From Luteitalea sp. TBR-22 (GTDB taxonomy: Bacteria; Acidobacteriota; Vicinamibacteria; Vicinamibacterales; Vicinamibacteraceae), in the NCBI RefSeq assembly GCF_016865485.1, contig NZ_AP024452.1, positions 4,858,501-4,922,500 on the forward strand: a DNA stretch of 64,000 bases, written 5' to 3'. Each line of letters opens with the position of its first letter. The stretch's first letter is position 1. Both the position numbers and the translations under genes were made by a program. The notes beneath the pieces are model-generated. The model was not told where the DNA came from. It made no database searches and worked only from the letters and a program-made list of their open reading frames with translations. Positions 5,838 through 13,138 of this stretch are shown here, piece after piece.

Positions 5838-7283
5838 TTACTCGAAGGCGCGGCCCTGCTGGAGGGAGACGGTGCGGACCGACGGCGCGTCGGGGGCCGA
5901 GGTCCTGTGCGCGCGTGCGGCCGCCGGTTCGACGGTCCATCCCAGCACCAGGCCGGGCGCCACACCGCCGGCGACGAGCAGCACGATGATGGCGGTGAGC
6001 GCCCATCGCTCCCGCGGCAACGCGTCGACCAGCCCCGTCACCGCCGGGCGCGCCGTTCCGAGGAACAGCCGGCTGAAGAGGCGGAACAGGCACACGGCGT
6101 TGAGCGCCGTCGCAATCGGCAGCAGCAGGCCCACCTGCGGATGCGACGCCAGCGAGCCGTGCACGAGCAGGTCCTCGGCCGCGAAGCCGAGCGTGCCCGG
6201 AATCCCGACGAGCGCGAGCCCGGCGATCGCAAAGCCGACGGCGAGCCGAGGCATCGCCTGCGCGAGGCCCTGATGGTGCGACAGGTCGAGATGGCCGCCA
6301 CGCGCCTCGACGGCCCGCAGCACGCCGAACAACGCCGTCGTCGACAGCGCCACCACCGCGAGGTGCACGAAGGCGCCGGTGGTGCCTTCGGCCGTGCCGC
6401 TCTCGAGGCCGGCCAGGATGCACGCCGACTGGCTCAGGACCAGCAGCGCGAGGATGCGCGCCGGCCGCGGCTCGGCCACCGCGCGCACGGCGGCATACAA
6501 GGCCGTGAACAACGCCAGGTCCGACAGCAGCACGAACGCGGAGCCGACCGTGTCGGGGAACACCGGGATCAGCACGCGCGCGAGCACCACGGCGCCGAGG
6601 TGACCGTTGACCAGCAGGGAGATCGGCAATCCGCCCTGCTCGGCCAGGTCGGCCACCCAGGCGTGCGCCGGGAAGATCCCCTTGCGCAGCACGATGGCCA
6701 GCATCACCAGGGCGAAGGCCGCCGGGCCGCCGGCATGCGTGCCGGCCAGGCGTGCGAACGCCGCGATGCCGTGCCCCCCGGGGCTCGTCAGCATCAGCGC
6801 CACGCCGGCCCCGAGCGCGAGGCACGAGGCCGCCAGCGCCGCGCGCGGACGCCACGCCGCGCCGGACGCGAACGGCCCGACCACGAACGGCGCCGCGCCG
6901 ACGGTCCATCCCACCAGCAGCGTCACGGGATTGCCGGCGACGCAGGCGGTCACCGTACCCGACACGGTGACCAGCAGGGCGGCGACGCGGGCGCGCGTGA
7001 GGTCGCGTGCCGGTGCGAGCAGGAACGCCAGCATCGCCGTCAGAGCGTAGATGGCCGCGCCGAGGGCCGGCACACGGCCGCCGTCGAGCCACGCGCCCAC
7101 CGCGGAGTCGCCCTGGACGAGGACCGTGGATGCCCCGGCAGCCGCCGCTGCCAGCAGTGCCGCGACGGCACACGCCGTGACGGCCACACGCCGGAGGATG
7201 CGTGCGTGCGTGGGCAGCGTGAGGGCCGCGACCGCCGGGACAAGCAGGCTGCCCAGCACGAGCAGCAGGTTCGGATCAGCCAT
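5838..7283 (-). CDS. NuoM/NuoN-like proton-conducting membrane subunit of the putative DIC-uptake cluster
   Basis: 481 residues, almost entirely hydrophobic with about 13-14 predicted helices: a proton_antipo_M type protein. The stretch RKGIFPAHAWVADLAEQG followed by LPISLLVNGHLGA corresponds to the Lys/His half-channel motif of NuoL/M/N and MrpA/D antiporter subunits (KxPxHxWLPxA, then PxSxLL). It overlaps the preceding NuoL-like gene by 8 bp (7276-7283), and a GGGAGG sequence precedes its ATG, so it is translationally coupled. It is the last gene of the SulP-dabA-dabB-like operon. Characterised DAB systems need only one such subunit, so a second is unusual. It may add a proton channel or replace part of DabB. 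It is not part of a complex I operon here, since no other nuo gene is nearby. Confidence 0.75.
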   Translation of the reverse strand: MADPNLLLVLGSLLVPAVAALTLPTHARILRRVAVTACAVAALLAAAAAGASTVLVQGDSAVGAWLDGGRVPALGAAIYALTAMLAFLLAPARDLTRARVAALLVTVSGTVTACVAGNPVTLLVGWTVGAAPFVVGPFASGAAWRPRAALAASCLALGAGVALMLTSPGGHGIAAFARLAGTHAGGPAAFALVMLAIVLRKGIFPAHAWVADLAEQGGLPISLLVNGHLGAVVLARVLIPVFPDTVGSAFVLLSDLALFTALYAAVRAVAEPRPARILALLVLSQSACILAGLESGTAEGTTGAFVHLAVVALSTTALFGVLRAVEARGGHLDLSHHQGLAQAMPRLAVGFAIAGLALVGIPGTLGFAAEDLLVHGSLASHPQVGLLLPIATALNAVCLFRLFSRLFLGTARPAVTGLVDALPRERWALTAIIVLLVAGGVAPGLVLGWTVEPAAARAHRTSAPDAPSVRTVSLQQGRAFE

Positions 7284-11552: not shown

Positions 11553-13138
11553 GCGGTCACCAGCCGGCGGTCCTTGCGGCGCGCAGCGAGCGGGTGGTGC
11601 GACGAGGCCTCGTGATCGTCGAGTCCCACGAGTTCCAGTGTACGGTCGTTCCAGGTGCGCGACAGGCCATCGAGCTTGGCGAGCACGGTGTGATCGACCA
11701 CCCAGGCGTTGTCGAAGTCGACCACCACCCGGCGGACGTCGGGCTCGAGGGTGGCGATGCGACGCTTGAGGCCGAGGTAGTTGGTGAAGATTGCCGCGTC
11801 GTGGACCGACAGCGTGACGGTGTCGCCGTCGCGCTCCTCGTGGACCACGGCGTTGAAGAACCGCGACAGGGGCGCGCCGTTCTTGACGTGCAACGCCGCC
11901 TTCAGCACCAGCCCCGCGCCGACACCCACCAGCAGGTCGGTCGTCAGCGTCACCAGCATCGTCACCACGAAGATCAGCAGCTGCTCGGCGCCGATGTGGT
12001 AGACGTGCATGAACTCCTTCGGCGAGGCGAGCCGGAGGCCCGTGTAGATCAGCATCGCGGCCAGGGCGGTCAGCGGGATCATCTGCAGCAGCGCGGGCAC
12101 CAGCGCCAGCGAGGCGAGCAGGAACGCGCCGTGGAAGAAGTTCGACAGGTGCGACTTCGCGCCGTTGTCGATGTTGGCCTTGCTGCGGACGATTTCCGAG
12201 ATCATCGGCAGCCCGCCGAGCGAGGCGGCCACCAGGTTGGCCACCCCGGTGGCGAGCAGGTCCTTGTTCAGGTCGCTGGTGCGCTTCTCCGGGTCCAGCG
12301 AGTCGACGGCGGTCACGCTGAGCAGCGACTCGATGGTGCCCACCAGCGCGAACATCACGATGTACTTCAGCGACGTCCCCGAGAACACCTGGGAGAAGTC
12401 GGGCAGCGCGATGGCACTGAGCAGCGAGGCCGGGAGGCGGATCAGGAAGTTGGGGCCGATGCTGTAGGTGTGATCGGCCACCGCGTAGCTGTGGGGGTGC
12501 TGCAGGTCGAACAGCAGCGCCATCGGCACGGCGACCACCAGGACCACCATCTGCGCCGGCACCATCCGCACCCACTTCGCGCGGAGGAGGGGCAGCCCGA
12601 ACAGGATCAGCAGGCCGACGGCCCCGATCAGGAACACCTCCGGGTTGAGGTTCAGCAGGCTGTGGGGCACCTCTGCCAGCAGGTGCAGCGGTTCCTTGCC
12701 CTCGGGCACCACGCCGAGCAGCACGTGCGCCTGCTTGGAGACGATGATCACGCCGATGGCGGCGAGCATGCCGTGCACGACGGCCGACGGCATCAGGTCG
12801 CCGACCACGCCGGCCTTGGTCAGCGCGAAGACGATCTGGATCACCGCGGCGACCACGCCGACGGCGAGCATGCGGTGGTAGCCGGCCACCGGGTCGCCCG
12901 CGCCGAGCTCGGTCACGGCGCCGAGCGCGATGACGATCAGCCCCGCGGCCGGGCCCTTGATGGTGAGGCGGGCACTGCCCAGGAACGATGCCAGCAGGCC
13001 GCCGACGATGGCCGTGACCAGGCCGGAGGTCGGGGGCACGCCACTGGCCATCGAGATGCCGAGGCAGAGGGGAAGCGCGATGAGGAAGACGAGGAAGCCG
13101 GACGCGAGATCCGCCTTCCAGGGCTGGGACGAGGACAT
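11549..13138 (-). CDS. SulP family anion transporter with C-terminal STAS-like domain, first gene of the dab cluster
   Basis: About 529 residues with 10-12 transmembrane helices. It opens with the SulP signature region (KADLASGFLVFLIALPLCLG, then GPAAGLIVIALGA) and includes SLDPEKRTSDLNKDL and GGLPMISEIVRSKANID, both typical of SulP. A short cytoplasmic STAS-like domain follows (HDAAIFTNY, VVVDFDNAWVVDHT). SulP proteins carry sulfate, bicarbonate (BicA-type) or other anions; substrate cannot be read from sequence. The 4-bp ATGA overlap with dabA argues for bicarbonate. The start at 13138 is uncertain, since an in-frame ATG lies at 13174 and neither has a strong ribosome site. It is divergent from the porin gene, with 115 bp between the two starts holding both promoters. 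Confidence 0.88.
   Translation of the reverse strand: MSSSQPWKADLASGFLVFLIALPLCLGISMASGVPPTSGLVTAIVGGLLASFLGSARLTIKGPAAGLIVIALGAVTELGAGDPVAGYHRMLAVGVVAAVIQIVFALTKAGVVGDLMPSAVVHGMLAAIGVIIVSKQAHVLLGVVPEGKEPLHLLAEVPHSLLNLNPEVFLIGAVGLLILFGLPLLRAKWVRMVPAQMVVLVVAVPMALLFDLQHPHSYAVADHTYSIGPNFLIRLPASLLSAIALPDFSQVFSGTSLKYIVMFALVGTIESLLSVTAVDSLDPEKRTSDLNKDLLATGVANLVAASLGGLPMISEIVRSKANIDNGAKSHLSNFFHGAFLLASLALVPALLQMIPLTALAAMLIYTGLRLASPKEFMHVYHIGAEQLLIFVVTMLVTLTTDLLVGVGAGLVLKAALHVKNGAPLSRFFNAVVHEERDGDTVTLSVHDAAIFTNYLGLKRRIATLEPDVRRVVVDFDNAWVVDHTVLAKLDGLSRTWNDRTLELVGLDDHEASSHHPLAARRKDRRLVTA

Follow-up and report, generated by a model that had tools for sequence, protein, structure and literature searches.

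The window described here, a stretch of 64,000 nucleotides, lies on the complete chromosome (6,468,984 bp) of Luteitalea sp. TBR-22, an isolate from a duckweed frond (PMC8852301). Four minus-strand open reading frames (ORFs) at window positions 5838-13138 encode a SulP-family transporter, DabA, DabB and a NuoM-like protein that is referred to here as Sub4. Judged from its sequences, this set appears to represent a mechanistically distinct class of DAB, a variant of the known pump. DabA, DabB and Sub4 probably form a CO2-hydrating complex that is driven by the proton-motive force (PMF), in which DabB and Sub4 would share one split proton path and which would provide bicarbonate to a cell without Rubisco.

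The gene neighbourhood itself has been known since 2017, when it was described in the COGNAT paper as 'clade C', in which ybcC (DabA) is located upstream of nuoL and is accompanied by sulfate-permease and NuoM genes; that source leaves its function unassigned (PMC5700660). The TBR-22 locus fits this description. The paper predates the work on DABs, and its main text reports none of the residue and domain changes seen here. The reading as a distinct DAB class is the new part. No assignment of the class to inorganic-carbon uptake and no account of its residue and domain changes were found in the literature searched, which did not include key subscription papers, so that an earlier description is possible.

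Conservation of the gene set and features of DabA

All four ORFs that the first-pass annotation had listed are present, and they overlap by 4 bp (SulP/DabA), 13 bp (DabA/DabB) and 8 bp (DabB/Sub4), as it had stated. When 84,980 species genomes were scanned for DabA, 389 relatives were obtained, from which 80 loci were kept; the peptide patterns were taken from the query, and the scan is therefore biased toward close relatives. The order DabA-DabB-Sub4 was detected in 60 of the 61 loci that had 3.2 kb or more of downstream sequence. At the single remaining locus (L070), a diverged Sub4-like protein was recognised by eye. A second, independent scan, based on Pfam and directed at Myxococcota, found DabA in 38 of 237 genomes and added 20 clade loci; where there was room downstream, Sub4 was present in 19/19, once fused to DabB. 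The order is clearly conserved outside this genome, and an arrangement peculiar to TBR-22, which had been named beforehand as a reason to give up the proposal, is ruled out by these counts. The class spans Acidobacteriota, Verrucomicrobiota, Planctomycetota, Myxococcota, Actinomycetota and other phyla. In contrast, all ten canonical comparators, which come from plasmids and Acidobacteriota, have DabB preceding DabA and no second antiporter subunit; an exception with a DabA of the canonical type is found elsewhere (L185, see below). In a DabA tree, the clade is set apart from canonical DabA by a long, fully supported branch, although the tree was made with a quick method and contains some long branches.

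DabA from the window scores 810 bits against PF10070 (cut-off 25), its gene adjoins that of a PF00361 NuoL-like partner, and it matches DabA2 of the DAB2 pump from Halothiobacillus neapolitanus (9rd0_A) with E=2e-63. The residues C422, D424, H612 and C627, noted at first pass, are all there: the zinc ligands C422, H612 and C627 and the dyad D424/R426 are invariant in 88 relatives, and likewise in the Myxococcota set. The functional residues of DAB2 are defined in its structure paper (PMC13144422). The position of Leu658, reported there as strictly conserved in 150 homologues, is a His in 108/108 clade DabA proteins (88/88 and 20/20 from Myxococcota; His750 in the window) and in 0/10 canonical ones, which separates a His-type from a Leu-type DabA. 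The position of Glu444 in the finger is acidic in only 1/108 clade proteins (0/88 and 1/20 from Myxococcota) and is Ala in the window, whereas it is Glu in 10/10 canonical proteins; DAB2 lost its activity when this Glu was changed to Ala or Gln (PMC13144422). A role in oxidative stress, as described for the DUF2309 protein 'och' (PMC9080137), was considered for DabA and rejected, because its catalytic site is that of a carbonic anhydrase (CA).

Besides the catalytic core, zinc ligands, Asp-Arg dyad and a NuoL-like DabB, the system shares with DAB2 (DabA2-DabB2, PDB 9rd0; PMC13144422) the equivalents of DabB Lys235, Lys310, His339 and His343. It differs from DAB2 in the order DabA-DabB, in the extra NuoM-like Sub4 and in SulP. 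In addition to Leu658 to His and the absence of Glu444, the changes comprise Ile151 to Glu, His to Tyr in transmembrane helix (TM) 8, Ser316 to Ala, Lys347 to Arg and a DabB without TM12-15.

SulP is an optional partner, present at 40 of 64 loci: its gene is upstream and co-directional at 26, divergent at 14 and absent at 24. At many SulP-less loci (17 loci), an ArsR-type regulator is found directly upstream in its place. The window SulP scores 140 bits against the NCBIfam BicA model, far under the cut-off of 880. Glu270 and a SEIVRS-type motif are conserved in 35/35 SulP proteins of such loci. The earlier proposal that SulP is part of one complex is modified accordingly: SulP, being optional, may be a parallel transporter instead of a complex subunit.

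Division of antiporter elements between DabB and Sub4

Clade DabB proteins measure about 390-470 aa, compared to 495-565 aa for canonical DabB, and an internal deletion after TM11 appears as an alignment gap of about 100 aa. The AF2 model of the window DabB (pLDDT 89.8) has 11 TMs and a C-terminal amphipathic-looking helix, and not the 15 TMs, including TM12-15, of a DAB2-like subunit. In a VIA structure comparison of this model, 406 residues superpose on NuoL 1-562, which suggests that around 150 NuoL residues are missing and that the end helix would lie near the lateral helix of NuoL. With phmmer, DabB matches 9rd0_B with E=3e-27; 9rd0_B is absent among the 50 VIA matches listed.

DabB Glu155, Arg186, Asp189 and Lys234, which correspond to NuoL Glu144, Arg175, Asp178 and Lys229, are nearly invariant in the clade. 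The Glu in TM5 (Glu155) occurs in 77/77 and 20/20 clade DabB proteins and in 0/10 canonical ones. In complex I, ion pairs of this kind are located near the interface with the neighbouring transmembrane subunit (PMC13144422), and in NDH-1MS, NdhF3 keeps them at its interface with NdhD3 (PMC6981117). The quartet is confined to the systems that have Sub4, which is in keeping with a docking of the two proteins as in complex I, but this represents one evolutionary contrast.

Sub4 is predicted to have a complete 14-TM antiporter fold of the NuoM/MrpD kind, with broken TM7 and TM12 (AF2, pLDDT 91, pTM 0.91). Its VIA Z scores lie at 40-45, among them 44.6 with an antiporter subunit of the complex I membrane arm, 43.8 with NdhD of NDH-1MS and about 43 with MrpD. 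The Glu of TM5 is found in 0/68 Sub4 proteins, a basic residue in TM7 in 65/68 and the acid in TM12 in 66/68. Each of the two proteins thus retains the half that is missing from the other, which points to one proton path shared by both. The two proton channels initially proposed are less likely than such a path split over two proteins, as DabB is without the half after TM11 and Sub4 without the TM5 Glu.

Two gene fusions involve Sub4. At one locus (L174), DabB and Sub4 are joined, in this order, in a single ORF that has two Proton_antipo_M stretches and an extra hydrophobic segment in between. By a topology derived from complex I, the C-terminus of DabB would be cytoplasmic and the N-terminus of Sub4 periplasmic, and a fusion would then require such a segment. 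At another (L068), the C-terminus of Sub4 carries an alpha-CA domain (PF00194, E=1.3e-20), which by the same analogy would be periplasmic. At the level of sequence, these fusions tie Sub4 to the DAB complex and to CO2 chemistry. Together with the conserved order, they bear out the initial suggestion that the fourth gene is part of the system. Genes for beta-CA adjoin further loci (L025, L030/L092 and L044). A different arrangement is seen at L168 (G730:C29, 615-9955), where three NuoM-like subunits, two of them with the TM5 Glu, flank DabA-DabB, one upstream and two downstream, resembling an extended, complex-I-like row of antiporters.

Proposed mechanism and alternative explanations

In DAB2, the periplasmic half-channel consists of the DabA finger, with Glu444, and TM12-13 of DabB (PMC13144422). 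The only solved DAB structure explains coupling by elements that a large, multi-phylum class lacks while keeping the active site. This class provides a natural experiment on the coupling of CO2 hydration to membrane energy and suggests how complex-I modules get reused. It also suggests that an active supply of bicarbonate is common among heterotrophs.

In the mechanism considered here, DabA would be a zinc beta-CA-like enzyme seated on DabB, which would dock to Sub4 in the way known for NuoL and NuoM or for NdhF3 and NdhD3 of NDH-1MS. DabB would contribute the half of the proton path with the TM5 Glu/TM7 Lys ion pair, and Sub4 the half with the TM12 acid. The PMF would make cytoplasmic CO2 hydration one-way, thereby loading the cell with bicarbonate. 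SulP may act as a parallel anion importer, probably of bicarbonate. Porins, regulators and an occasional alpha- or beta-CA would complete a carbon-supply locus for heterotrophic carboxylases. More tentatively, and with considerable doubt, the class may be a third energy-coupled CA architecture, between DAB2 and NDH-1MS: PMF-driven and with a split path, combined with a SulP importer of bicarbonate, pores in the outer membrane and, in some cases, an alpha-CA in the periplasm, mainly in bacteria without detected Rubisco.

In NDH-1MS (NdhF3-NdhD3-CupA; PMC6981117), too, a NuoL-like terminal subunit carries a zinc-dependent subunit for CO2 hydration and has ion pairs facing a NuoM-like neighbour. 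However, CupA differs in fold and zinc site, and NDH-1MS is redox-driven, whereas the window operon has no electron-transfer arm: no CupA/CupS and no quinone/ferredoxin arm were recognised among the genes identified in the operon and its surroundings. MpsAB from Staphylococcus aureus (PMC6689103; PMC8552792) is likewise a DabA/NuoL-type pair that feeds inorganic carbon to a heterotroph, but it has two subunits, no Sub4 and a proposed Na+ coupling. A SulP protein and a beta-CA-type protein are also paired in SulP-CA fusion transporters, one of which, a SulP-beta-CA fusion, is encoded elsewhere in TBR-22 (L101, G000:C1:2580421-2580912). Here, in contrast, the genes are separate, the CA-like partner is the membrane-coupled DabA, and the SulP domains of the window and L101 are 32% identical.

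Several points weigh against the split-path complex. A single deep branch divides the His-type from the Leu-type proteins, so that the correlated changes amount to one evolutionary event and not many. The loss of Glu444 could mean weaker or different coupling. Each of the two fusions occurs on one contig, in genome assemblies. The TBR-22 genome contains three beta-CA matches, one of them inside the SulP-beta-CA fusion, so that the DAB complex would not be the sole source of bicarbonate. Lastly, no assayed member of the class was found in the literature searched.

Of the alternatives, an ordinary two-subunit DAB survives best, although it is unlikely. DabA and DabB would suffice; Sub4, as a scaffold or a duplicated antiporter, would have no proton path of its own, and SulP would be an unrelated, co-regulated sulfate or anion transporter. 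Canonical DABs function with two subunits (PMC13144422), and both the missing SulP at 24 of 64 loci and its low BicA score agree with this explanation. Nevertheless, Sub4 is conserved as well as DabB and is found fused to DabB and to a CA, and DabB is devoid of the helices that contribute to the periplasmic half-channel in DAB2.

A cation-coupled, MpsAB-like system is somewhat less likely still. An Mrp-like Na+ antiporter pair would then serve Na+/bicarbonate co-transport or pH and Na+ homeostasis. Sub4 is about as near to MrpD as to NuoM, Leu-type DabA occurs within an Mrp-type operon at two loci, and Na+ coupling has been proposed for S. aureus MpsAB (PMC13144422). However, DAB2 did not need Na+ (PMC13144422), and the residues conserved in the class are proton-path residues of complex I. 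The two loci (L185, G742:C321, minus strand, 1-10267; L198, G800) belong to the Myxococcota search group; in both, SulP and Leu-type DabA are followed by MnhE, MrpF, MbhD/E, MnhB, MrpD and then a NuoL-like subunit, and DabA is apparently plugged into an Mrp complex.

Reverse use, in which SulP would import bicarbonate for dehydration by DabA, either to consume cytoplasmic protons (acid resistance) or to power ion export, is improbable: His750 restores a Gln/His-type position of beta-CA that DAB2 lacks and might allow reversible catalysis, and the original proposal, for an exergonic reaction, came from the 2017 authors (PMC5700660), but DAB2 is built for hydration only and its Leu658 to Gln mutant is still without membrane-free activity (PMC13144422).

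Accessory genes and host genome

The features of the locus are listed in Table 1.

Table 1. Features of the DAB locus, in window positions.
Feature	Position	Strand	Evidence
SulP-family anion transporter (optional partner), 529 aa	11549..13138	minus	PF00916 Sulfate_transp, E=1.8e-56
DabA, 960 aa, beta-CA-like catalytic subunit, His-type class	8670..11552	minus	PF10070, E=2e-243, 810 bits
DabA 'finger' helix-loop-helix, about residues 505-545, without equivalent of DAB2 Glu444	9918..10040	minus	residue 522 = Ala
DabA His750 codon (DAB2 Leu658 position)	9303..9305	minus	
DabB, 468 aa, NuoL-like, TM1-11 and C-terminal amphipathic-looking helix	7276..8682	minus	Proton_antipo_M + N
DabB Glu155 codon (NuoL Glu144 / DabB2 Ile151 position)	8218..8220	minus	
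Sub4 (name proposed: DabC), 481 aa, NuoM/MrpD-like, 14 TM	5838..7283	minus	PF00361 Proton_antipo_M
Divergent outer-membrane porin, Alginate_exp, probable accessory	13254..14516	plus	PF13372, E=4e-61
Sensor histidine kinase (HisKA_3/HATPase_c)	14540..15541	plus	Pfam
LuxR-type response regulator	15510..16148	plus	Pfam

Relatives of the histidine kinase and of the LuxR response regulator are each found near DabA at 25 other loci. The clusters behind these counts were formed by loose linkage, and some of their regulators may be unrelated. Relatives of the Alginate_exp porin adjoin 6 other loci, and outer-membrane barrels of the DUF2490 type are found near others. The first-pass suggestion that the divergent porin and the two-component pair belong to the same system is in line with this, as the pair and some type of outer-membrane barrel recur at such loci. 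A hybrid histidine kinase with a receiver domain is encoded next to Sub4, immediately downstream and in the same orientation (window 3287-5740; Pfam).

The TBR-22 genome has one DabA, and complex I NuoL/M/N are encoded elsewhere, at about 260 kb from the operon. A search of the whole genome found no Rubisco large subunit, so that the absence of Rubisco first noted for the window holds beyond it. Rubisco large-subunit matches, two of them weak, were obtained in 7 of the 42 other clade-carrying genomes tested, many of which are drafts; most of the bacteria with this gene set are thus unlikely to be Calvin-cycle autotrophs. As a speculation, an active supply of bicarbonate would make sense on the fronds of duckweed, where CO2 may be depleted by photosynthesis.

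Four other Luteitalea genomes and two others of the family lacked DabA, and in the DabA tree the window protein groups with Bryobacterales-type proteins and not with those of its own order. This suggests gene transfer, and the operon (window 5838-16148) looks horizontally acquired. Another arrangement occurs on a plasmid of Nitrobacter hamburgensis (L127), which carries two copies of a unit of DabB, a 253-aa hypothetical protein and a long DabA (1037 aa); a PII gene follows the first copy of this three-gene unit.

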